Shown: positions 2,960-16,402 of the stretch, one piece after another
How the letters are laid out: each line of letters opens with the position of its first letter
Numbering within the stretch: position 1 is the stretch's first letter
Position numbers and translations under genes: made by a program
Source: Actinospica robiniae DSM 44927
GTDB taxonomy: Bacteria; Actinomycetota; Actinomycetes; Streptomycetales; Catenulisporaceae
Direction of reading: 5' to 3'
DNA: 64,000 bases
NCBI RefSeq assembly: GCF_000504285.1
Contig: NZ_KI632511.1
Location: forward strand, 1,671,372-1,735,371
Notes under the pieces: model-generated
Seen by the model: the letters and a program-made list of their open reading frames with translations, nothing else
Database searches by the model: none
What the model was told of the DNA's origin: nothing

Positions 2960-3018
2960 AACAGGGCCTCCCTGCTCGATGGATCTCAACAACCCCGAGC
3001 TACACCGGAGGCCCTGTC
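2960..3018. repeat. inverted repeat at IS5-type end
   Basis: AACAGGGCCTCC at 2960-2971 and GGAGGCCCTGTC at 3007-3018 form an 11-of-12 inverted repeat 35 bases apart, just outside the IS5-type start. It may be two abutting IS ends or a strong hairpin that insulates the next gene. Confidence 0.45.
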
Positions 3019-3183
3019 TTTATGCACGTCGGCATCGACGAGCACCCGAACGAGATCCCGCACACGTGCACTCGGAAACACCGCGGAGGGCTATTAGAGC
3101 CCCCGCGAGCGGGGCCCAGCACCGTGGAGGTGCGCTTGAGTGTTCGCAGACGTGCGCTATCGCCGGTGTTGGAGGAACGCCCG

Positions 3184-3663
3184 ATGACGATCGACCTGGA
3201 ATCTCTCGCCGCCCGACTGGACCGGGTGGAAACTGAGCTGGCCCTGCACAGGCTCGTCCACGACTACTGCATCGCCGCCGATCACCGCGACGCGCAACGC
3301 TGGGATGCGGTGTGGACTCACGATGCCGTCTGGGAGACAAGTCCGGATCGCGTCTACCGGGGCACAGTCGAGATCCGTCGTGCTGTTGAAGTGCAGTGGG
3401 CCACCTTCCCAGCGATGCAGCACGCGACCTCCAACCACATCGTCGACCGGATCAACGGCGACACGGCGGCCGGCCGCTGCGACGCGGTCGTCCTGGTACA
3501 ACTGCCCGACCTGCGATGGATCGTGGGCGGAGGCGCGTACGAGGACGAATACCGCCGCGAGGATGACCGGTGGCGGATCGCCCGCCGGACAGTGGTGCGA
3601 CCTTTTGACCTCGCGCCACTCGCCGCGAGTAACTCTCCGATCCTTTTAGACGAAGACGACTGA
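3184..3663 (+). CDS. SnoaL/NTF2-like domain protein
   Basis: A 159-residue protein of the SnoaL_4 type, a cone-shaped alpha+beta fold used by scytalone dehydratase, polyketide cyclases and small dioxygenase subunits. The N-terminal helix (LESLAARLDRVETELALHRL), the HDYCIAADHRDAQRWDAVW segment, and the strand pairs around MQHATSNHIVDRI and YEDEYRREDDRWRIARRTV fit this fold. The ATG at 3184 is chosen because GGAGGAAC lies 5 bases upstream; the frame runs open further 5' but through IS sequence. It stands alone, so the substrate cannot be guessed. It could be an isomerase, dehydratase or a non-catalytic binding protein. Confidence 0.8.
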   Translation: MTIDLESLAARLDRVETELALHRLVHDYCIAADHRDAQRWDAVWTHDAVWETSPDRVYRGTVEIRRAVEVQWATFPAMQHATSNHIVDRINGDTAAGRCDAVVLVQLPDLRWIVGGGAYEDEYRREDDRWRIARRTVVRPFDLAPLAASNSPILLDEDD

Positions 3664-3854
3664 ACAGCGGCGGCCAGGCAGGTCAGCAACACGCCACCCG
3701 TCATCGATCACCCCTCGGCCGAAGGAGGTACCCACCTTACTGGCGTCCACTGACACCGTGCGGGGCCCTACCGTGCATGGTCGAGTTGAGGGCCGTTGTG
3801 ACCGGATACGGCCCGTTGGGGGGAGCTGACAGGAGTTGGGCTGAACTGGTGCCG
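3664..3854. other. intergenic, nothing recognised
   Basis: No convincing gene, repeat or strong promoter was seen between the SnoaL-like gene and the frameshifted small gene that ends at 3855. Confidence 0.4.
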
Positions 3855-4042
3855 CTAGCGTCGTTGCGCCCGCGTGCGCTTGAGGATCTCGGTGAGCCGT
3901 GTGTAGCCGACCCCGTTGTTGAGCGCGGCGACGAGCTCGTCCGGACAGAGTTCGTAGAGCTCCCCCACCAGCTGCGGGCCCTGTTGTCCCAGATCCGGTA
4001 GCCGCCTGGGACGCCGCGGGGTACGTATCTCCGCTTGCTCAT
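3855..4042 (-). pseudogene. small protein gene broken by a 1-base deletion
   Basis: From an ATG at 4042 the reverse strand reads MSKRRYVPRGVPGGYRIWDN, then in the next frame QLVGELYELCPDELVAALN and YTRLTEILKRTRAQRR before TAG. Adding one C in the CCCGC run near 3975 would restore a single 62-residue protein with WDNRARQLVGELYELC at the join. Both halves have good codon bias, so this was recently a real gene. The family is not recognised. Confidence 0.5.
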
Positions 4043-4328
4043 CGTGCCCTGATTCTACCGGGGCTCAGCGGGAGGTCGCCTGGTCTTCAGCGTGGTCGAC
4101 GGTTTCTCGTCGATCCCGAGGCCTCCGCTGCGTAGAGCATAGCGCCGTGCCGCGGCCACGCGAGCTTGTCCACCTCGGAACTGTCCATCTCAGAACCTTG
4201 GCCGCGGCTTCGGGCGATCGCTAGAGTCGGGCCCTACATGGGGCCTCTGCAGCCTTTGTGTCAAATCATCACATTTGCATGTGCGCGTCCCGTTCCCTTT
4301 CAGTCGTGACGGCGGGAGGAGGTGTGAC
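4043..4328. promoter_or_regulatory. upstream region of the peptide operon
   Basis: About 285 bases without a gene. The last 80 bases before the precursor ATG are the only AT-richer part (around TGTGTCAAATCATCACATT at 4256-4275), the likeliest place for the operon promoter. No classical -35/-10 pair could be assigned. Confidence 0.3.
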
Positions 4329-4493
4329 ATGGCAGAGGAATCGCATGTACGCGAGATCGTGCAGGAGTGCGCGGAGAAGTCCGAGGACCTCGAGATGATG
4401 TGGTGGCGAGCGACTTTCGACACCGCGAGCCTCGTGCTCGAGGGCGCAGACGAGCCCCTCGCGACGGATGAGTCCGCGATCACCGCAAGCTGA
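4329..4493 (+). CDS. candidate RiPP precursor peptide
   Basis: A 54-residue acidic peptide right before a radical SAM/SPASM gene. The ATG at 4329 has GGAGGAGGTG immediately upstream, the strongest ribosome binding site in this region. The first 22 residues are charged and helical, like a leader. Residues 23-37 (MMWWRATFDTASLVL) contain two Trp and one Phe in an otherwise polar peptide, and a second acidic stretch follows to the end (ADEPLATDESAITAS). It does not end in the FxSxx motif known for FxsA precursors. Trp25-Trp26-Arg27 and Phe30-Asp31-Thr32 fit the aromatic-x-x pattern of three-residue cyclophanes. Its role as precursor is inferred from size, position and composition. It could also be a small regulatory peptide. 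Confidence 0.6.
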   Translation: MAEESHVREIVQECAEKSEDLEMMWWRATFDTASLVLEGADEPLATDESAITAS

Positions 4494-4569
4494 CGCCTGA
4501 GCAGCACGGTACGGCGGGCTGCGGAGGCTCCATGCACCTTTGGCACCCGGACGCCGTGGAGAGGATCTC

Positions 4570-5700
4570 ATGCCGGGACTGCTCACCCTCATAGTCAAAG
4601 CGACCCGCGAGTGCAATCTGCGCTGCTCCTACTGCAACGACTGGCGCAGCACCGCCAACGCGATCTCCCTGGAGACCGCCGATCTGATGGTCCGCCGGGC
4701 GATGGCCGCCAAGGACGTCACCGCAGTGCACTTCAACTGGCACGGCGGCGAGCCGACGCTGGTGCCCCTCGACTTCTACCGGCACGTCTTCGCCGAGCAG
4801 GCGCGGCACCGGCCGGCCGGGCGGAAGTTCACCAACACGCTGCAGACGAACGGCACGCGGCTGACCGACGAGTGGCTCGACTTCCTGGTGGCCCAGCACG
4901 TGGGCCTCGGCATCAGCATCGACGGGCCGCCCGAGATCCACGATCGGATGCGCCCGACACGCGGCGGGGGCTCCTCCTCGCGGCTGATCGAGAAGACGCT
5001 CGTCAAAGTGCGCGACCGCGGAATCCCGCACGGCGTCAGCATCGTGGCCTCGCACGAGCTGGTCGGCAAGGGGCCGGAGTACATCTGGTCCTTCCTGCAG
5101 AGCGCTGGGATCTCGAACGTCACGCTGGTCCCCGTGCGCCCGCCGAACCCGGTGGCCGGGGACGAGGCCGCGCCGACCATCTCCCCCGAGTTCCTCGGCG
5201 GCGCGGACTGGTCGGCCTACCTGTGCGGGCTGTTCGACCTCTGGTGGTCGAGCGACTCCACGGTGAAGATCAACAACTTCGACGCCGTCCTGCGCAAGCT
5301 GCTCGGCCGGGCGCCGCGCAGCTGCCTGATCTCAGGCAACTGCCTCGGTTCGGTCTACGGGATCGAGGCCGACGGCACGATCATGCACTGCGAGCTGTTC
5401 CAGGGCGAGCCGGACCGGGCCTTCGGGAACCTTGCGAGCACCACCTTCGACGAGGTCGCGGCGGATCTGCGGATGGCGGCGCTGCGCCAGGCGGACGCGG
5501 AGCGGCTCGGCCGGTACCGCGAGTGCCCGACCTTCGGCATCTGCGCCGGCGGCTGTCCGCACGAATGGTACATCCACGAGGGCTACGGCAAGGCGGACCA
5601 GCTCGGCTCCTGTTGCGGCTGGCGCCCGCTCGTCGAGCACATCGCCAAGCGGCTGGCGGCGAGCAAGGTACCCGCGGAAGCGCTCGCATGGACGTCCTAA
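4570..5700 (+). CDS. radical SAM/SPASM peptide maturase (FxsB-like)
   Basis: A 376-residue enzyme. Cys15, Cys19 and Cys22 (CNLRCSYC) form the site for the SAM-binding 4Fe-4S cluster. HGGEPT and SIDGPPEIHDRMRP are further radical SAM signatures. The last 110 residues carry SPASM cysteines (CLISGNC, MHCELF, CPTFGICAGGCPHE, CCGW) for auxiliary clusters. FxsB-like enzymes join an aromatic ring to a backbone beta-carbon in a precursor peptide; the likely substrate is the 54-residue peptide 76 bases upstream. The ATG at 4570 follows GGAGAGGATCTC. In most FxsB proteins an HExxH domain is fused at the C terminus; here that domain is the next gene. The crosslink position is unknown. Confidence 0.92.
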   Translation: MPGLLTLIVKATRECNLRCSYCNDWRSTANAISLETADLMVRRAMAAKDVTAVHFNWHGGEPTLVPLDFYRHVFAEQARHRPAGRKFTNTLQTNGTRLTDEWLDFLVAQHVGLGISIDGPPEIHDRMRPTRGGGSSSRLIEKTLVKVRDRGIPHGVSIVASHELVGKGPEYIWSFLQSAGISNVTLVPVRPPNPVAGDEAAPTISPEFLGGADWSAYLCGLFDLWWSSDSTVKINNFDAVLRKLLGRAPRSCLISGNCLGSVYGIEADGTIMHCELFQGEPDRAFGNLASTTFDEVAADLRMAALRQADAERLGRYRECPTFGICAGGCPHEWYIHEGYGKADQLGSCCGWRPLVEHIAKRLAASKVPAEALAWTS

Positions 5701-5771
5701 GGTAGGCAGCGGACGACGAGGGCGCGGCGGAGGCGGTACGGCCGTGGCTGGTACCGGGCGAAGGCCTGGCC

Positions 5772-6977
5772 GTGGTGGCGCGGGCGATCCGGGCACACGC
5801 CCGGCACGAGGACACCGCCGCCGTCGGCCGCCTGCAGGTTCCGTCCGTCGTCGCGGAGCAGTTGGAGAAGGCGCTCGCCGCCGACGCGTCCTTCGCCCAC
5901 GAGGCGGGCGGCTGCGGCGGGATCCACCTGCCTCCGGGCCGGATCCAGAAGGAGCCGCGGGTCTACGCCGATCTGTGCGGCCTGGCCGCCGAGGCCACGG
6001 TGACCGTCGGCGGCTCGTTCAGCGAACCGCTCGCCGTCTCGAAGATCGTGTTTGCGCACAGCCGGCTCGCCATCGACTTCGGCGACGCGCCGGAACCCGT
6101 GACCCTGGCAGCGCACGACGGCGAGGTGCGGCTCAGCCGCGGCGACACGCGCGTCACCCTGGCGCCCGCCGCCGGGACGGGGACCCTCGCGGTACGCCGG
6201 AGCAGCCCGAGGGTTCAGGTCCGGCAGTCGGTCCGGACCGCGGATATGCGCCTGGCCACCGAGGACGGCCTGCTCCCCCTCGGCATTCCGGACTTCTTCG
6301 CGATCGCCGAGCCGCCGGGTGACGAGGACCTCGCAGGCCTCGAACGTACGCTGCAGCTGCTGGAGCGGGCGTCGCCGCAGACGCTGGCCGAGTTGACCGC
6401 CGTCGCACGCGCCCTCGTGCCGCTGCAGCGGCCACCGGGCCGGGCCATCCACAGCAGCAGCGCGCGGGAGCTGCCGGGCGTGGTCTACGCCGTCTTCGCC
6501 GACCCGCTGGAGGCGCTGGCGATGGTCTGCCATGAATACCATCACCTGAAGCTGTTCCTGCTCGAAGAGAGCGCCACGCTGCTCGGCGATCCGAGCCGGC
6601 CGGTCAACGCGCCGTGGCGGCCGGACACGCGGCAGGCGGAGGGCGTGCTGCACGGGACCTACGTCTTCTTCGGCATCGCCACGACCTTCGCGCGGCTCTT
6701 CACCGTGCTCAATCCGACCCGCCGGGGTTATCGCCGGCTCGCGATCTGGCGCGCGTGCGTGGAGGCGGGAATCGCGCAGCTCGCGTCGGCGGACGCACAG
6801 CCGACGGCCGCCGGCGAGGCGCTGGTGAACGGCATGGGCGCGATCAACGCCGCGGCGCTGGCCGAGCTCGAGGAGAGCCACCACCATGAGGTCCAGAGGG
6901 CCCGCAGAGTCATCGGGGAGCATCTGGCCGCCGCAGGGACCGAGGAACGGAGGGAACCGTGGTATCTCCTCAGCTAG
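5772..6977 (+). CDS. HExxH-type RiPP modification protein
   Basis: About 401 residues, matching the domain that normally follows the radical SAM part in FxsB proteins. The metal-binding motif is His254-Glu-Tyr-His-His258 in MVCHEYHHLKLFLLEE, with conserved downstream NAPWRPDTR and GVLHGTYVFFGIA. Members are thought to modify the same precursor, and from memory some have been linked to 2-oxoglutarate-dependent hydroxylation. The start is uncertain. GTG at 5772 is the first standard start, but the frame already looks coding from 5706 (AVRPWLVPGEGLAVVARAIR). An ATG at 5688, overlapping the radical SAM gene, is in frame but followed by TAG at 5703. The 3' end overlaps the next gene by 19 bases, indicating tight coupling. 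Confidence 0.85.
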   Translation: MVARAIRAHARHEDTAAVGRLQVPSVVAEQLEKALAADASFAHEAGGCGGIHLPPGRIQKEPRVYADLCGLAAEATVTVGGSFSEPLAVSKIVFAHSRLAIDFGDAPEPVTLAAHDGEVRLSRGDTRVTLAPAAGTGTLAVRRSSPRVQVRQSVRTADMRLATEDGLLPLGIPDFFAIAEPPGDEDLAGLERTLQLLERASPQTLAELTAVARALVPLQRPPGRAIHSSSARELPGVVYAVFADPLEALAMVCHEYHHLKLFLLEESATLLGDPSRPVNAPWRPDTRQAEGVLHGTYVFFGIATTFARLFTVLNPTRRGYRRLAIWRACVEAGIAQLASADAQPTAAGEALVNGMGAINAAALAELEESHHHEVQRARRVIGEHLAAAGTEERREPWYLLS

Positions 6978-7783
6978 GGTCGGGCTCGCCCGACCATCTC
7001 GCCGCGGACCATCTCGCCGCCGACTATCTCGCCACCGTGCAGAGCAGCGCCGTCGCCCTGGCCGACCTGGCCGAGGACGACCCGACGCTGATCGTCCCCG
7101 GGTGCCCGGCGTGGACCCTGGCGGACCTCGTCCATCACGTCGGGGCGGTCTACCTCCACGTCAGCGAGCTGACCAGGAGCCGCCCCGTCTCGGGCAAGGA
7201 GGTCAAGACCCGGCTCGGTCCGGTCCGGGCGCCCGCCCCGGGCACGATGCGGGCCTGGTTCACGCAGGCCACTGACACGCTCGTGGACACCCTCGCGGCC
7301 GCGGGCGAGGACGAGCGGATCTGGTCGTGGTCGAGCGAGCGGACCGTGGCGTTCTGGATCCGGCGGATGTGCCACGAGACGGTCGTGCACGAATGGGACG
7401 CCGCCAGCGCGCACGGCGAGGACCTGCGCATCGAGCCGGGCCTGGCCGGCGACGGGATCGACGAGTTCGTCACGCACTTCGTACCCTTGATGCGCCGCCG
7501 CCGCAGCGCCGTGGCCGCGTCCGGCGAGCACTATCTGGTCGAGTGCACCGACGTGGCCTCGGCGTCCTGGGACGTGGCGTTCGGCGAGGGCGCCCTCGAC
7601 GCGGGGGCGGACGGCAGCGGCACGGCGCCGCCCGATCCGAACCCGGTGGCCCTGCGCGGTGCGGCGCAGGACCTGCTCCTGCGCTTCTGGCGACGGCCGC
7701 TTCAGCCGAACCCGGACCCCGACCCCGACTCCCTGACCGCCGCGGGGTTCGAGCGCTGGTGGAGGGTCGTCGGATGCCCGTGA
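6959..7783 (+). CDS. MDMPI-type mycothiol-dependent enzyme
   Basis: A 274-residue protein of the maleylpyruvate isomerase (MDMPI/DinB-like) family. The N-terminal four-helix domain includes VPGCPAWTLADLVHHVGAVY, and the zinc ligands fit His in LVHHVG and the Glu/His of MCHETVVHEWDA. An MDMPI_C-like domain follows. Family members use mycothiol as a cofactor or transfer groups to thiols; many have unknown substrates. The GTG start at 6959 follows GGAACGGAGGGAACC and lies inside the end of the HExxH gene, so it is translated with the peptide genes. A role in thiol chemistry or detoxification of the peptide product is inference. Confidence 0.85.
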   Translation: MVSPQLGSGSPDHLAADHLAADYLATVQSSAVALADLAEDDPTLIVPGCPAWTLADLVHHVGAVYLHVSELTRSRPVSGKEVKTRLGPVRAPAPGTMRAWFTQATDTLVDTLAAAGEDERIWSWSSERTVAFWIRRMCHETVVHEWDAASAHGEDLRIEPGLAGDGIDEFVTHFVPLMRRRRSAVAASGEHYLVECTDVASASWDVAFGEGALDAGADGSGTAPPDPNPVALRGAAQDLLLRFWRRPLQPNPDPDPDSLTAAGFERWWRVVGCP

Positions 7784-7796
7784 AGGGAGTTGACCG

Positions 7797-8690
7797 ATGA
7801 ACCCGTCGCCGTCGATGGGTGGCGCAGCCCCGCTGAACCGGCTGACCGACCGCGAGCGGTTCCTGTTCGACCTGAACGGGTTCGTGGTCGTGCGCGGGGC
7901 CCTGACGGAGAGTCATGTGGCCCGGCTCAACGAGGCCGTGGACCGGCACCCGGAGGGCATCGCGCGCTCGACCCTCGGGCCGGGGCCGTCGAAGACGCTG
8001 GGCGGCAGCCGGCGCTGCCGCGGGTTCAAGCCGGATCCGCTGCAGTTGCCCGAGCCGGACGCGCGCCCCTTCCGCGAGCTGGTCCGCAACCCCGAGTCCC
8101 GGCGCTACCTGGACTCCCTCCTCGGCCGCGGCTGGCGCCTCGACTCGGCACCGGAGATCATCCTCGCCGATCAGGGTGCCGACGGCATGTGCCTGCACGG
8201 CTCCGGCCAGCGGTGGTTCTCGCCGGTGACCTACTACTCGTACGCGAACGACGTCATCCGCTGCGGCATGATCACCTTGGAGTTCGCACTGACCGCCGCG
8301 CGGGCCGGGGACGGCGGGTTCGCCTGCATTCCCGGGAGCCCCAAGGCGAACCTGCACTGCCCCGCGTCCATCTTGAAGTGGGAGCAGGACACCGAGCTCG
8401 TGCGCCAGATCGAGATGGAGCCGGGCGATCTGATCGTCTTCACGGAGGCCCTGCTGCACGGCACGCTGCCGTGGCGCGCGGCGCATCAGCGGCGGGTCAT
8501 CCTGATGCGCCAGGTGCCGAAGGTGAACTGCACCGTCCCGCCCCGGCTCGCCTACCATCAGACGAGCTACCCCGACTGGATCAACGACCTCGCGCCGGAG
8601 GACCGGGTGCCGTTCGAGGCCCCTTACTTCCTGGAACGCCCGGTGCTCACCGAGGACGACACGGTGGAGCCGGCCACGGAATGGGTGTGA
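7797..8690 (+). CDS. PhyH-type iron/2-oxoglutarate oxygenase-like protein, atypical iron site
   Basis: A 297-residue protein with the phytanoyl-CoA dioxygenase layout: GFVVVRGALTESHVARLNEA at the start, then LHGSGQRWF, GDGGFACIPGSPKANLHCP and ALLHGTLPWR with the distal His221 and Arg232/233. The first His is His134, but the position two residues later, normally Asp or Glu, is Ser136 (HGS). Loss of that carboxylate is the hallmark of iron/2-oxoglutarate halogenases, although a PhyH branch with LHGG-type motifs also exists. ATG at 7797 follows GAAGGGAG. Its place in the operon suggests hydroxylation or halogenation of the peptide. The reaction is not established. Confidence 0.85.
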   Translation: MNPSPSMGGAAPLNRLTDRERFLFDLNGFVVVRGALTESHVARLNEAVDRHPEGIARSTLGPGPSKTLGGSRRCRGFKPDPLQLPEPDARPFRELVRNPESRRYLDSLLGRGWRLDSAPEIILADQGADGMCLHGSGQRWFSPVTYYSYANDVIRCGMITLEFALTAARAGDGGFACIPGSPKANLHCPASILKWEQDTELVRQIEMEPGDLIVFTEALLHGTLPWRAAHQRRVILMRQVPKVNCTVPPRLAYHQTSYPDWINDLAPEDRVPFEAPYFLERPVLTEDDTVEPATEWV

Positions 8691-8692
8691 CG

Positions 8693-9961
8693 ATGAAGAA
8701 CCGACCCGCCTCGACCTTCGCGCCCCTGCGCACGCGGGACTTCAGGGTGCTGTGGGCGGGGCAGAGCGTGAGCCTGTTCGGCGACCGCGTCTTCCCGATC
8801 GCCCTCGCCACCCTGCTGCTCACCTCGGGCCGCGGAGCGTCAGGGCTCGGACTCGTGCTGGCGGCGCGCTCGGTCGCCCTCGTCGCGGTGGTGCTTCCCG
8901 CGGGCGTGCTCGCAGACCGGGTCAGGCGCACCCACGTGATGTTCGCCGCGAACCTGCTGTGCCTGGGCGGCGTCGCCGGCCTCGCTTTGGGCCGGTATCC
9001 GGTCTCGGTGGGCCTGGCCTGTGTCTGCGGGGCCGCGGTCGGCGCCGGCGAGGGCATCTTCACCCCGGCATTCAGCGCCGTGGTGCCCCAGGTCCTCCCG
9101 GACGAGGACATGCAGTCCGGCAACGCCCTGATGTCGCTCTCCAGCCAGACGGCGATGATCGCCGGCCCGGCGCTCGGCGGCCTGCTGGTCGCGCTCGGGA
9201 GCCTGCGCAGCGCCTTCCTCATCGACGGTGCGACCTTCGTGGTCAGCTGCGCCTGCCTGGCGGCCATCCGGGTGGAGCGGCCCGAGCCCACCGGGGAAGG
9301 CATGTCGCTGCGCGTCGCCGCGGGCGGTTTCGCCGAGGTCGCCAAGCGCCCGTGGGTGAGTGCGGTGATGCTGATGTCCTGTGTGCAGATGGTCTTCGCC
9401 TCCGCCACCTGGACCCTGCTGCTGCCGGTGATCGCGCGCACCCGCTTGGACGGCACGCCCGCGTACAGCGCCTTGCTGGTGACCTTCGGCGCCGGGGCCC
9501 TGCTCGGCGCGCTGGCGGCGAGCCGGTGGCGGCCGTCCAGGCCGGGGGCCGCCGCGTTGGCCGCGCTCCTGCCGTTCGGGGCGATGCTCGCCGTCATGGC
9601 GGTGTCCCGTTCGGTGTTCGTGATCGGCGCCGCGACGGCGTTGGCGGGGGCGGGCCTGGAGTTCTTCGGCATCGCCTGGATGACGGCGCTGCAACGCGGG
9701 ATCCCCGAGCGCGCGCTGGCCCGGGTCATGTCCCTGGACTACTTCGTCAGCGGCCTGCTGTACCCGATCGGCCTGGCCGCCATGGGCCCGCTGGCCTCGC
9801 ATTTCGGAGCGGGCGCGATCCTGGTCCTCGGCGCGGCGGTCCTCGCCGCCAGCACCCTGGGCCCGATGTTCGTGCCCGGCGGCCTGGACTTCGCCGATCC
9901 CGGGCCCGCGCCCGGGCCGGTCGACCGGGCGAGCGTGGTGGGGAGCAGCGCCGATGGCTAG
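8693..9961 (+). CDS. MFS efflux transporter
   Basis: A 422-residue polytopic membrane protein of the major facilitator superfamily, close to MFS_3-type drug exporters. TFAPLRTRDFRVLWAGQSVS and the loop GVLADRVRRTHVM are typical signatures, and 12 hydrophobic stretches are spread over the length. The ATG at 8693 starts 2 bases after the PhyH stop, so the two are translationally linked. The likely job is export of the finished peptide or self-protection. The C-terminal 25 residues are polar (FADPGPAPGPVDRA) and probably cytoplasmic. Confidence 0.88.
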   Translation: MKNRPASTFAPLRTRDFRVLWAGQSVSLFGDRVFPIALATLLLTSGRGASGLGLVLAARSVALVAVVLPAGVLADRVRRTHVMFAANLLCLGGVAGLALGRYPVSVGLACVCGAAVGAGEGIFTPAFSAVVPQVLPDEDMQSGNALMSLSSQTAMIAGPALGGLLVALGSLRSAFLIDGATFVVSCACLAAIRVERPEPTGEGMSLRVAAGGFAEVAKRPWVSAVMLMSCVQMVFASATWTLLLPVIARTRLDGTPAYSALLVTFGAGALLGALAASRWRPSRPGAAALAALLPFGAMLAVMAVSRSVFVIGAATALAGAGLEFFGIAWMTALQRGIPERALARVMSLDYFVSGLLYPIGLAAMGPLASHFGAGAILVLGAAVLAASTLGPMFVPGGLDFADPGPAPGPVDRASVVGSSADG

Positions 9962-10490
9962 CCGCGATCAGGTGAGCGTGCCGCTGGAACGCGGCCTCGC
10001 CGGGCAGTTGCACGCCCCGGCCGCCGTCAACGGCAAGAGCGTCTCGGCGTTCCTCGACACCGGCGCCATGTGCACGGTCCTGTGCCTCTCCCTCACCTCG
10101 GACCTGGGCCTGGAGACGCGGGCATCCGGCCGGCGCGTCGGGGGTGCGGGCGCGGTGACCCTCGAGGTGTTCGAGGTCGTGGACGCGCTGTTCGAGCTCG
10201 GCGGGGTTCCGTCGCCCGGCCTGCCGCTGCTGGCGACGGACCTGAACCGGGTCAACGGCGGCCGGCGCCGTAACGGCGATCTGCGGATCGACGTGGCATT
10301 GGCCGGCGAGCCTGCGGAGCCTGCGACGTCAAGGGCCATCGGACCATCCCCTTGTGTTGACCGGGATCTCACCTCGCAGACTAGGAAGGCCGCCTACTCC
10401 CGCGATACCACCGCACTATCGTCGAACTCTGCCGCCGGCTTCATCGCGGCCGCGACGAGGGCGGCCAGCTCCGGCGGGCCTTCGAGGTAG
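9954..10490 (+). CDS. retropepsin-like aspartyl protease-like protein
   Basis: Starts with ATG at 9954 inside the end of the MFS gene (8-base overlap). The first 110 residues look like a retropepsin monomer: AVNGKSVSAFLDTGAMCTVL holds the active-site Asp-Thr-Gly, followed by alternating strands and ALFELGGVPSPGLPLLATDL. Retropepsins act as dimers, each giving one Asp. The second Gly-Asp motif expected near the C terminus is weak (NGDLRIDVAL). From about 10310 codon bias is lost and the frame overlaps the opposite thioesterase gene, so the 3' end is probably truncated or frameshifted. It is the best candidate in the operon for leader-peptide removal, but activity is uncertain. Confidence 0.6.
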   Translation: MASRDQVSVPLERGLAGQLHAPAAVNGKSVSAFLDTGAMCTVLCLSLTSDLGLETRASGRRVGGAGAVTLEVFEVVDALFELGGVPSPGLPLLATDLNRVNGGRRRNGDLRIDVALAGEPAEPATSRAIGPSPCVDRDLTSQTRKAAYSRDTTALSSNSAAGFIAAATRAASSGGPSR

Positions 10491-11188
10491 CTCCAGTGGT
10501 CCCCGTCGAGCAGGTGGAAGTCCGCGTCGGCGCAGCCCTCCCAGCCGGGCCAGACCACGGACGGCGGCACGACCTCGTCGGCGCTCCAGCCGATGACCGT
10601 CACCGGCACCGGGATGCGGGGTTCGCCGTCGTACGCGTAGCCGCGCTCCACGCGCATGTCGAACAGCAGGCTCCGGGCGGCCAGCTCCGCGTGGTCGGCG
10701 GGCAGGGTGAAGCCCATCCGCGCCAGGCAGATGTCCTGGATCTCGGCGACCGCGTCGAAGGTCTCGAGGTCGACGAAGCTGAGCCGGCCGTAGAGGCCGC
10801 GGTGGGCCGGCCCCCAGGAGGAGCAGAACAGGCGCTCGGGCAGCGGCAGTCCCGCCTCCTGCAGCCGGAACGTGGTCTCCACCAGGTAGGGGAAGGCGCC
10901 GCAGTGCCCGATGAAGGCATAGCGACGGTCCACGTACCCTGATATCGCGGCGACGGTCGCGTCCGCGAATTCGCGGTGGGTCCGCAGCGGTGCCTCGTCG
11001 GTCCGGTCCTCCCGGCCGGGCGGCTGCAGGGGGCAGAGCACGCCGTCGCCGATCTCCCGCGGCCAGGCGTGGTAGGTCGCGGACGCGCCCACTCCGGCGT
11101 AGGGGAAGGCGAAGAGGGCGAACTCGCCGTCGCCGGGCTCTGCGCGCAGCATCGTCGCGCCGGTCACGGATCGCGTGGTCGGGCTCAT
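10394..11188 (-). CDS. type II thioesterase with Cys nucleophile
   Basis: A 264-residue alpha/beta-hydrolase of the GrsT/TEII family, which clears or releases acyl groups from carrier proteins. The N-terminal FALFAFPYAGVGAS and PLQPPGRE, the Asp in SADEV and the His in DGDHW are as expected. The nucleophile elbow reads FIGHCGAF, so the usual Ser is Cys96. The ATG at 11188 overlaps the NRPS stop (ATGA), so the two are one operon on the reverse strand. Cys at this place is rarer than Ser and in some thioesterases goes with strained-ring or macrocycle formation. Whether that applies here is unknown. Confidence 0.85.
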   Translation of the reverse strand: MSPTTRSVTGATMLRAEPGDGEFALFAFPYAGVGASATYHAWPREIGDGVLCPLQPPGREDRTDEAPLRTHREFADATVAAISGYVDRRYAFIGHCGAFPYLVETTFRLQEAGLPLPERLFCSSWGPAHRGLYGRLSFVDLETFDAVAEIQDICLARMGFTLPADHAELAARSLLFDMRVERGYAYDGEPRIPVPVTVIGWSADEVVPPSVVWPGWEGCADADFHLLDGDHWSYLEGPPELAALVAAAMKPAAEFDDSAVVSRE

Positions 11189-12981
11189 CGGCCGCCGGCC
11201 GTCCTTTCCGCGTCCTCGATCAGGCCCCGCACCGCCGTGGCCGTTCCCGCGATGGTCGGGTCTTCGTAGAACCCGCGGGCCTCGAGGACGACCCCGTACT
11301 CGCCGGAGATCGCGGTGGTGATCCGGGCGGCGAGCAGCGAGTGGCCGCCGAGCTCGAACAGCCCGTCGTCCACACCGATCCCGTCGATGCCGAGGACGTC
11401 CTCCCACAGGCCGGTGAGCCACGCCTCGATCTCGGTGCTGACCGCGCGGTAGGGCCGGGTCAGTTGCGGACGTTGCCGGCTGCGGCGGCTCGCGAGGTCC
11501 GAGCGGTCGACCTTCCCGTTGGCGTTGAGCGGCAGCGTGTCGATCCGGGTCAGCCGAGCGGGGACCATGTAGTGCGGGAGGACCGCGTGCAGGGCCTTGC
11601 GCAGCTCAGGTGTCGGCAGCGGGTCGTCGCTCTCGTAGAACGCGGCGAGTGTCCGGCCGCCGACGCTGTCGCGCTGCGGCACCACCGCAGCGTCGCGCAC
11701 GCCGGGCAGTGCGCGTAGCGCGGCCTCCACCTCGCCGGGCTCGACCCGGAATCCGCGGATCTTGACCTGGAAGTCCGCGCGCCCGATGAACTCGATCGTG
11801 CCGTCGGGCCGCCGGCGCACGAGGTCTCCGGTTTCGTACATCCGGGCCCCGGGTTCAGGCGCGAACCGGTGCGGCAGGAAGCGACGCGCGGTGAGGGCGG
11901 GCTGGCCGAGGTAGCCGTCGGCGAGGCCCTCGCCCGCCGCGAAGAGCCCGCCGGTCTCGCCGTCGGGCATCGGGTTCAGGTCCGCGTCCAGGATGAGGAC
12001 GGAGGTCCCCCTGACGGGCCGTCAGATCGGGACGGTTCCCTGCTCCACCGGAGCGGACACGGGGTGGCAGGTGGTGTAGGTGGTGTTCTCGGTCGGGCCG
12101 TAGGCGGCGATCAGCCGGGCTGCGGGCAGCGCGGCGAATGCGCGGTTGACGTGCGGTACCGAGAGCACGTCGCCCCCGGTCAGCAGGTAGCGCAGCGCGG
12201 GCAGGTCCGCCAATCCGGCATCGACGACCTGGTGGAACAGTCCCGTGGTCAGGAACCACACCGTGACGCCCTCACGGCGGGCCAGTTCGATCAGCTCGAC
12301 CGGGCTCAGGTCCGGCAGGGGCGCAGGGACCACGGCCGCGCCGTGCAGCAGCGGCACCCAGATCTCGAAGGTAGACGCGTCGAAGGCGGTCGGCGCGGCG
12401 TGCAGGAACACGTCGTCCGGCCGGACGTCGATGTAGTCGGGGTCTTGCGCCAAGCGCAGCACCGCGCGGTGCGGCACGCACACCCCGCGCGGCGAGCCGG
12501 TGGATCCCGAGGTGTACGCGATGTAGGCGGTCCGGCCGGGGTGCTCGACGCGCGTCGGCGGCGCCTGCGGCTCGTCGACGTCGGACGGCTCGGGTGGCAG
12601 CAGCTCACGGATCGGGGCGGGAACGCGTCCGAGGTGCTCTTGTCCGCAGATGACGAGTTCGACCCCGGCGTCGTGCAGCAGCGCGGCCAGCCGCCCGTCG
12701 GGGTCGCGCGGATCGAGCGCGAGATAGGCCCGGCCGGCCTTGAGGATGCCGAGCAGCACGGCGATCGACGTCGTCGAACGGTTCATCAGCACGGCCACGG
12801 GGGCGTGGCCCGGGACGTCGCCCGGACCGGCGGCGCGGGCCAGGAGCCGGGCCACGTCATCGCTGCGCGCGTCCAGTTGCGCGTAGGTGAGCCGGTCTTC
12901 CCCGGCGCGGACGGCCACGGCTTCGGGCGTCCGGCGCGCGCAGTCGACGAAGAGCCGGTGCACGGACTCCGGCGTCGTCAC
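11185..12981 (-). pseudogene. NRPS A-PCP module with in-frame stop
   Basis: A 598-codon gene starting with GTG at 12981 (GTGA overlap with the upstream MFS stop). Adenylation motifs are in order: [60 protein letters not shown] and LPLNANGKVDR. A carrier domain with GLFELGGHSLLAA closes the protein. Codon 320 is TGA (12024-12022) where the family has the Gly of IGRP; one T-to-G change would restore it, and the frame continues unbroken. The pocket residues read by eye, D-A-F-W-L-G-A-T-Y, resemble valine-type codes. No condensation domain is present, so it would load an amino acid onto a free-standing carrier. As read, the product is truncated. Confidence 0.85.
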
Positions 12982-14248: not shown

Positions 14249-15030
14249 CTACGCGTCGCCCCCTTCGCCTCCGGGCGCCTCGGTGGCGCGGGAGAGCAGG
14301 CAGCCGAACTCCAGCGCGGTCGAGTCGACCCGGGGATCGGTCGTCATCCACGCCTCGACCCGGGTCCCCGCGTCGCTGAAGAGCCGGCGCCAGAAGCCGG
14401 TCGTCTCCAGACGCTGCTCGGTGACCTGGTGCAGCAGGTAGTACGGGTTGTAGTACGCGGTCCCCAGGCCGTGCCGCATCTTCGACGGGTCGTCAGGCCG
14501 GTGGTCGACTTCGATCACGACCAGGTGGGAGTCCTCGGCGCAATGCACCGCGGCGTGCACCAACTGGACCACGGCGTCCCGGTCCTGCTGCTCCAGCACC
14601 TCCTGGAGCGAGAACGCCGTCAGGTAGGCCGTGCGGCCGCGCGGGAGCCCGTCGCCCCGGGCCAGATAGCCCTCGGCGCTGTCCACGGCGAAGGAGACTT
14701 CGAGCCCGGATTCGGCCGCGGCCCGGCGGGCCGCTGCGATGCTCGGCGGATGCGGATCGACGCCGACGCCGCTCGGCCCGTCGCCGCACAGGTCCAGCAG
14801 GATCGTCCCGTCCCCGCAGCCGAGGTCGACGATGGTGTCCACCGGGCCGGGCAGCTCCCGCAGCAGCCTGCGGACGAGCGGAAGCGCGTCGTAGCGGCTC
14901 ATTCCGCAGCTCCCCTTGCCGACTATGGCGCCGTTCCGGCCAGCATAGACCGCGGGGTCCGCCATCGTCTCGGGCAGTTGCCCGAGTGTGTCGGCGTAGA
15001 AAGCGCTGGCGCAGGCCCTGCGCGACACGA
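14249..15030 (-). pseudogene. SAM-dependent methyltransferase, N-terminally truncated
   Basis: The reverse strand gives about 260 residues with a class I methyltransferase core: VDTIVDLGCGDGTILLDL (SAM-binding motif I), GVGVDPHPPSIAAARRAA (motif II) and TAYLTAFSLQEVLEQQDRDA. The preceding AFYADTLGQLPETMADPAVY and GRNGAIVGKGSCGMSRYD recall the 2-ketoarginine methyltransferase group, but this assignment is from memory. Coding character stops near 15030, where the opposite strand begins a truncated gene, so the usual first 60-80 residues are gone. A start within the remaining frame is possible, for example Met in CGMSRYD, but would give a partial enzyme. Confidence 0.7.
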
Positions 15031-15044
15031 CGGCAGGCCACCGG

Positions 15045-15520
15045 TTGAAGGTGACGGTGACCGCCGACGCCCGTAGCTGCGTCGAGCGGGCCGACCTCGT
15101 CGTCCCCGTCACCACGGTCACAGAAGGCTACCTGCCGTACGCGTGGCTCAAGCCCGGCGCGCTGCTCGCCCACGTCTCACTCGACGACGCGATGCCCGAC
15201 GTCGTCGAGGCCGCCGCGATGGTACTCGTCGACGACTGGGGCCTGGTCAGCGCGGCCAGCGAAGGCTGCTCGGACGCATGTACCGGGCCGGCGAACTGCT
15301 GAGCCCGCAAGGCGAGGCCCACCCGGAGGCCGTCCCCCGAGCGGGCGCCCGGCGCGTGGACGGCACGCTCGGGGAGGTGCTCACCGGCGCGGTACCGGGC
15401 CGCAAGTCCGAGACCGACGTCATCCTGAGCAACCCGTTCGGCATGTCAGTACTCGACCTCGCCGTGGCCGAACCGGTCTTCCACGTGGCCCGCGACCTGG
15501 GAATCGGCCTGCGCCTGTAA
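15045..15520 (+). pseudogene. ornithine cyclodeaminase/SbnB-like fragment, frameshifted
   Basis: The plus strand reads CVERADLVVPVTTVTEGYLP and KPGALLAHVSLDDAMPDVVE, then after a frame change near 15255-15270 RLLGRMYRAGELLSP and FGMSVLDLAVAEPVFHVARD, ending with TAA at 15520. This is the C-terminal half of an NAD-binding ornithine cyclodeaminase/mu-crystallin family protein, most like SbnB-type enzymes that help make 2,3-diaminopropionate. The N-terminal half is missing and the join at about 15040 abuts the truncated methyltransferase. It would have supplied an unusual amino acid to the peptide cluster. Confidence 0.65.
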
Positions 15521-15532
15521 CCCTGAGGACGG

Positions 15533-16402
15533 ATGATGGCCTTCTTCCTGCTCACCGAGAACACCTTCCACTCGGGCTACCTGGTGAACCAGTGGCTTGA
15601 CGAGTTCGGCACGGACCCGGAATTCCTCGGCGTGACACTGCGCGCGGACCCGCTGCCCGAAGAAGTGCTCGCAAACCGCGCGTCGTTTCACGAACGCCTG
15701 CACGGGCGCAGAGAGCTGAGCGATATGGAGCAGAGGGAACTCCTCGCCCTCTACCCCGACGCGGGCGACACGGACTTCGCCATGGTCAAGCTGCTAGGCA
15801 TACCGGCGCGGCCGGTCACCGCCCTGGACCCCGGCACGGCAACCTTCCTAGGCCACGACCTGAACAGCGCACGAGCAGAAGCGTGGCTGACGGCCATGAG
15901 CCAGGCGCACGAGAGGCTGCACGGATTCGTCTTCCTGGATCGGCTGCTGGCGAGCTGGTGGATCAAGACAACCGCAGGCATGCTGTTCAACGCCCACTCG
16001 GCCGTCCTGCCGCACGCACGCGGCATGTTCGCCATCGAACAAGTCGCCGCCCGCGCAGACGCCGAATACTTCCGCCGCGCCGCCGGCGCGACCGTGCACT
16101 TCGTCGACGAGGGCGTGGACACGGGCCCGATCGTGCGCGCCGAGCGGCTCGATGACCCATTCGCGGCCGAGTCGATCTGGGAGTGCAAAGGCAGGTCCTT
16201 CGCGACGGGATTCAGACTGCTCACCGAAGTCGCCCGCGACGCCCAGGCGTCCCGAATCGCCCCGCCGACACCGCAGACGGACGGCACGGAGGACCGCGAA
16301 CCCGGCCCCGAGTTCAAGCGGCGAGACTTCGCTCAAGCAACGAAGGCGGCGGCCGAACGCGGCTACCTCGAGATGCGACGCCGGGCGAAAGCCGGGCCAT
16401 GA
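15533..16402 (+). CDS. formyltransferase (Formyl_trans_N family)
   Basis: A 289-residue protein related to methionyl-tRNA and amino-sugar formyltransferases. The catalytic set is visible: Asn and His in LFNAHSAVLPHARG and Asp in GATVHFVDEGVDTGPIV. It would transfer a formyl group from 10-formyl-tetrahydrofolate to an amine. The first 70 residues (FFLLTENTFHSGYLVNQWLD) differ from the housekeeping Fmt and the C-terminal tRNA-binding domain is replaced by a short basic tail. The ATG at 15533 follows TGAGGACGG and lies 12 bases after the SbnB fragment. Next to it is a deformylase gene, so the pair may add and remove a formyl group on a peptide or on ornithine-type residues. Confidence 0.8.
   Translation: MMAFFLLTENTFHSGYLVNQWLDEFGTDPEFLGVTLRADPLPEEVLANRASFHERLHGRRELSDMEQRELLALYPDAGDTDFAMVKLLGIPARPVTALDPGTATFLGHDLNSARAEAWLTAMSQAHERLHGFVFLDRLLASWWIKTTAGMLFNAHSAVLPHARGMFAIEQVAARADAEYFRRAAGATVHFVDEGVDTGPIVRAERLDDPFAAESIWECKGRSFATGFRLLTEVARDAQASRIAPPTPQTDGTEDREPGPEFKRRDFAQATKAAAERGYLEMRRRAKAGP

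Follow-up and report, generated by a model that had tools for sequence, protein, structure and literature searches.

Does a PhyH-family enzyme that has lost the carboxylate of its metal-binding motif turn to halide chemistry, or does it stay an oxygenase? The question is raised by an open reading frame on the plus strand (7797-8690) of the window, the 64,000-nucleotide stretch of Actinospica robiniae DSM 44927 DNA analysed here. The frame opens with an ATG at 7797, is uninterrupted and encodes 297 amino acids, of which residues 24-234 match the PhyH profile (Pfam PF05721) with 45.8 bits (cut-off 22). A preliminary description had noted that His134 is followed by Gly-Ser while the distal His221 and an Arg are kept, and had proposed a possible Fe(II)/2-oxoglutarate (2OG) halogenase. 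The sequence agrees with the residues as described. H134 (8196-8198), G135 (8199-8201) and S136 (8202-8204) form an HGS segment at 8196-8204 that replaces HxD/E and places Ser at the carboxylate position; the range then given, 8196-8465, starts at the H134 codon and ends shortly after that of H221, with the R232 codon just outside. H134, H221 (8457-8459) and R232 (8490-8492) are each present in 104/104 rows of an alignment made from the query and 103 relatives found by BLAST, and we therefore take them as the proximal metal, distal metal and 2OG positions, the part of R232 being suggested by the family. The full HxD/E...H triad with Arg is not found in this frame, which reads HGS and has H221 and R232. 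That triad is a trait of most PhyH members but not of all, and the HGS/HGG clade also scores as PhyH, for example with 56.2 bits in its member L019.

The fold points to a particular relative. An AlphaFold2 model of the protein (mean pLDDT 88.5, pTM 0.89) has its best Foldseek match in HygX 4xcb (E 9.7e-15, TM 0.62/0.71) and its top VIA-align fold match in HygX 4xca, with a Z of 23.4 and an rmsd of 2.4 A over 218 residues, non-HygX entries reaching at most 21.9. HygX is also the top profile match (E 7.7e-23), and the profile alignment sets its LHGG and NEALMHGT opposite LHGS and TEALLHGT of the query. This enzyme of hygromycin B biosynthesis (PDB 4xc9, 4xca, 4xcb, 4zpi) thus shares with the query an LHGG-type motif and a Glu at distal His minus four; it differs in overall sequence (19% identity), in its sugar-type natural product context and in having Gly instead of Ser two residues after the proximal His (H+2). 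HygX is an orthosomycin-type oxygenase, not a halogenase. The abstract of its structure paper reportedly mentions variation in metal coordination. The enzyme is also named in passing in the relevant part of PMC8234114.

A halogenase would bind chloride to the iron at the position that Ser136 leaves free and pass it to a substrate radical, yielding a chlorinated peptide or pathway intermediate. SyrB2/CytC3-type chlorinating enzymes (TIGR01762) do have the PhyH fold and a small H+2 residue in common with the query, and T160 (8274-8276) and R238 stand at columns with Thr and Arg in 8/8 HQA chlorinating enzymes, where the query's clade mostly has Val and Lys; T160 is the residue that speaks most strongly for a halogenase. 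These columns presumably correspond to T143 and R254 of SyrB2, whose halide pocket we take to be formed by N123, T143 and R254; the Thr and Arg are matched, and the Asn belongs to a loop for which no alignment was obtained. The query is, moreover, divergent within its clade, and its chemistry could have shifted. Against this, the two residues also occur outside halogenases: column 160 holds Thr in 9/37 HxD rows and in 6 of 94 clade rows (Val in 57), and the R238 column holds Arg in 10/37 HxD rows. At column 158, where the halogenases have a further Thr, the query has Met, and the loop after H134 differs. The TIGR01762 profile gives 17.7 bits over 48 residues only, far below its cut-off of 226.3, and at distal His minus four the query has E217 where all eight HQA enzymes have Ser. 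In the Foldseek comparison SyrB2 comes at rank 42 (TM 0.49/0.47), and the nearest solved relative is HygX. Losing the H+2 carboxylate is not enough to turn an enzyme into a halogenase. Human AspH, which has no such ligand, hydroxylates peptide and does not halogenate its substrate, as stated in the sections of PMC13168262 concerned, and the carboxylate-free D414A/G variants of a prolyl 4-hydroxylase gained no halogenase activity according to the pertinent part of PMC2767507. The halogenase proposal is for these reasons not supported; on present evidence the protein is more likely an oxygenase, and chlorination by it appears improbable.

The lost carboxylate is a feature of the family as a whole. 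Contigs of genomes were scanned with a two-row alignment, which matched 146 stretches and gave 96 relatives; the best 80 of the 96 were used as loci. Some loci had no blastp match at 1e-3 and were left out (among them L008, L010, L012, L014, L015, L017 and L018), L108 and L109, being fragments, were excluded, and the tree omitted L002, L005 and L129, which are the same proteins as L084, L007 and L106, respectively. Over the 104 aligned rows, position 136 is Gly in 82, Asp in nine, Ala in five, Ser in four and Thr in four, and the nine Asp rows are canonical HQD or HSD relatives. In all 94 sampled clade members the H+2 residue is Gly, Ser, Ala or Thr. The hedge in the preliminary description, by which an LHGG branch might share the change, is thereby borne out, since 94/94 sampled clade rows are without an H+2 carboxylate. 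The phylogeny of the HGS/HGG clade that it had called for gives a consistent picture: the query groups at an SH-aLRT of 98 with L019, its nearest sampled relative (39% identity), which reads MHGS, and both lie inside a 29-row set supported at 99. The query itself carries the features by which we define the LHGG/HygX-like branch, namely HG[GSAT], a Glu at distal His minus four, GDGGF and an Arg at distal His plus eleven. It genuinely belongs, as a divergent member, to a PhyH clade that lacks the carboxylate and has a solved relative.

This clade is large and, in our sample, found mostly outside actinobacteria. It includes LHGG PhyH proteins of Poribacteria, Latescibacteria, Gemmatimonadota, cyanobacteria and others, which mostly read HGG while the query reads HGS. 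The abundance of PhyH proteins in Poribacteria is in print, and the text on it within PMC3909097 does not contain the LHGG motif. A search of the open-licence literature returned no paper on the LHGG/Glu feature, a result that does not prove that none exists. In L022, L025, L057 and L067 the LHGG PhyH genes occur in adjoining pairs on one strand. The query also shows a substitution of its own, Pro182 (8340-8342), at the position of the His of a PGSH segment kept in 93/94 clade rows and 35/37 HxD rows.

What sets the clade apart besides the lost carboxylate is an acidic residue elsewhere. E217 (8445-8447) is invariant in an 85-row alignment (A2), which lacks nine distant HSG, HGT, HNG, HGG and HRG rows included in a 140-row table of the H+2 residue against that at H221 minus four. 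In this larger table an acid stands at H221 minus four in 94/94 clade rows without an H+2 carboxylate (92 Glu and two Asp, or 98% Glu), in 1/37 HxD rows (L003) and in 0/8 of the HQA chlorinating enzymes over the TIGR01762 cut-off. The pattern is not forced by the search, because positions 136 and 217 both lie outside the two patterns by which the clade was retrieved. Contrasts on the tree give one independent pair on supported branches and three on all branches (sign-test p 1). Since the supported branches provide a single independent contrast, and independent events are few overall, the apparent coupling of positions 136 and 217 is described here as an association between clades and not as statistical proof. 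Other acids are clade-specific as well: D116 is acidic in 85% of the clade and 0% of HxD rows, D172 in 95% and 3%. As read from the profile alignment, HygX shares with the query the Glu and, of these two further acids, only D172. One protein outside the clade deserves mention. L107:1501-2385 exceeds the TIGR01762 cut-off with 295 bits, yet reads HQV and has a Glu at distal His minus four, unlike the eight HQA members. Left out of the clade count, it looks like an independent case of the same coupling at the sequence level, and its protein may be no halogenase. Taken by its conservation, E217 is a strong candidate for the Asp or Glu that would fill the third metal position.

How such a residue could act is suggested by human AspH. 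According to the structural passages of PMC13168262, its iron is held by H679 and H725 only, and a water molecule, W1, occupies the carboxylate site and is held by D721. Like the query, AspH thus has two His and no carboxylate ligand, and D721 lies at H725 minus four, the same spacing as from E217 to H221. AspH belongs to another Pfam family (PF05118), and the likeness is one of active-site logic, not of membership; a Pfam scan of the query at E 0.01 gave PhyH and no PF05118. This family was found in 4/198 genomes. Its bacterial members were considered as a control and rejected, as, judged by eye, the probable proximal site reads HFD in L142 and L143, HVD in L140 and HEE in L141, and none appears to be of the two-His type. 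In the query the AspH-like arrangement is seen as two His and an acid at the distal His minus four, and a water in the site would follow by analogy. Given the identical spacing to the distal His, we infer that E217 plays the part of AspH D721 or binds iron directly.

The explanation that we regard as best, and hold to be probable, is a two-His Fe(II)/2OG oxygenase of the LHGG (HygX-like) PhyH branch, in which E217 fills the open site and a peptide of the surrounding operon is the likely substrate. H134 and H221 would bind the iron, which in turn would hold 2OG together with R232. G135 and S136 would leave open the site normally occupied by Asp, and E217, in the turn before H221, would fill it either through a water, in the manner of AspH D721, or by direct iron binding, in both cases keeping halide out. 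The ferryl species would then hydroxylate the substrate, or oxidatively cyclise or desaturate it, the likely substrate being a peptide from the radical SAM/HExxH operon.

Direct binding, taken further, would make E217 a true third ligand: the carboxylate would have moved from H+2 to H221 minus four, giving a rearranged 2-His-1-Glu centre in an otherwise ordinary hydroxylase. The invariance of E217 in the 85-row alignment fits this idea, as does the model, in which residues 217-220 lie between strands 212-216 and 221-224 and E217 is predicted in the short turn beside H221. The variation in coordination said to be mentioned for HygX would agree with it too. At the same spacing in AspH, however, the acid is outer-sphere and not inner-sphere, and two clade rows carry Asp at this position, so that we consider a relocated ligand unlikely. 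The query could also be degenerate and inactive, kept by chance or for its structure. Pro182 in place of His, Asp152 in place of a Gly kept in 91% of the clade and a long end branch in the tree (1.03) are what such decay might leave behind; with H134, E217, H221 and R232 all intact, the frame open and a sister in an unrelated metagenome-assembled genome that also reads HGS, this alternative is highly improbable.

The neighbourhood bears on the substrate. Several genes on the plus strand overlap or nearly touch, which suggests that those around the oxygenase form one operon. A SnoaL-like gene (3178-3663) lies before a 54-residue frame (4329-4493) directly upstream of a radical SAM gene; the frame matched nothing in NCBIfam and no Pfam family above cut-off, and is a tentative candidate, as a reading frame, for the precursor peptide. 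The radical SAM/SPASM protein (4570-5700) is a peptide maturase of the darobactin-maturase type, with 276 bits for DarW (NF041300), under the cut-off of 650, and 65.2 bits for PF04055. It is followed by an aKG-HExxH-type peptide beta-hydroxylase with an HEYHH motif (5772-6977; TIGR04267, 101.9 bits, cut-off 40). In RiPP clusters, aKG-HEXXH enzymes hydroxylate peptide residues, as the corresponding section of PMC12636437 reports. Overlapping the HExxH gene is one for a mycothiol-dependent maleylpyruvate isomerase (MDMPI)-like protein (6959-7783; PF11716, 76.6 bits; TIGR03083, 69 bits, cut-off 50). Only two bases separate the oxygenase stop codon from the ATG of an MFS exporter (8693-9961; PF07690, 112.7 bits), which in turn overlaps the gene of a small aspartyl-protease-like protein (9954-10490; PF13650, 39.8 bits, cut-off 24.3), by its position possibly a leader protease. 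The gene order makes the operon peptide the likely substrate of the oxygenase. A scan of 3000-10600 for promoters and terminators found none, a scan that is uninformative for actinobacteria.

Relatives of the maturase at E 1e-40 or better occur in one other genome (G143) among 295 others in the class, and blastp at 1e-6 detects no relatives of the remaining operon proteins in the neighbourhood there (L146), which counts against the operon peptide as substrate; viral contigs gave no maturase relative. In Streptomyces sp. CB02923 a related HGG enzyme also stands before an MFS gene, beside NRPS genes.

Seen more broadly, a large and widespread PhyH clade may have arrived independently at the AspH solution, in which the iron carboxylate is lost and a Glu at distal His minus four guards the site and forces oxygen instead of halide chemistry; here it would serve as a second 2OG tailoring step beside the HExxH enzyme on a radical-SAM-made peptide. 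We offer this wider view tentatively. Its practical side concerns the annotation of halogenases. A missing HxD carboxylate is read as the sign of a halogenase, as it was in the preliminary description, and the sampled clade combines this loss with a fixed acid at distal His minus four. Because the clade has an acid there and the eight HQA chlorinating enzymes do not, checking this second residue may separate false from true halogenase candidates. The fixed Glu is the part of the finding worth testing: E217 offers a one-residue test of the choice between oxygen and halide in carboxylate-less 2OG enzymes, and if the AspH-like reading is true, its exchange for a small residue might open a halide site.

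The same genome holds 12 PhyH genes, ten with HxD, one with HQA and the one with HGS described here. The HQA gene (L106; G000:C1:3773513-3774394, minus strand) lies outside the window and clears the TIGR01762 cut-off with 430.9 bits, and the organism therefore has a chlorinating-type enzyme elsewhere. Within the window, an in-frame TGA at 12022-12024 (minus strand) interrupts an NRPS adenylation domain whose halves both match, AMP-binding upstream and AMP-binding_C plus a carrier downstream; it reflects a broken gene or an assembly error. Further along, at 14249-15121 (minus strand) and 15533-16402 (plus strand), a relative of 2-ketoarginine methyltransferase, which at 295.9 bits stays below the cut-off of 425, is found near a formyltransferase-like gene and NRPS genes.
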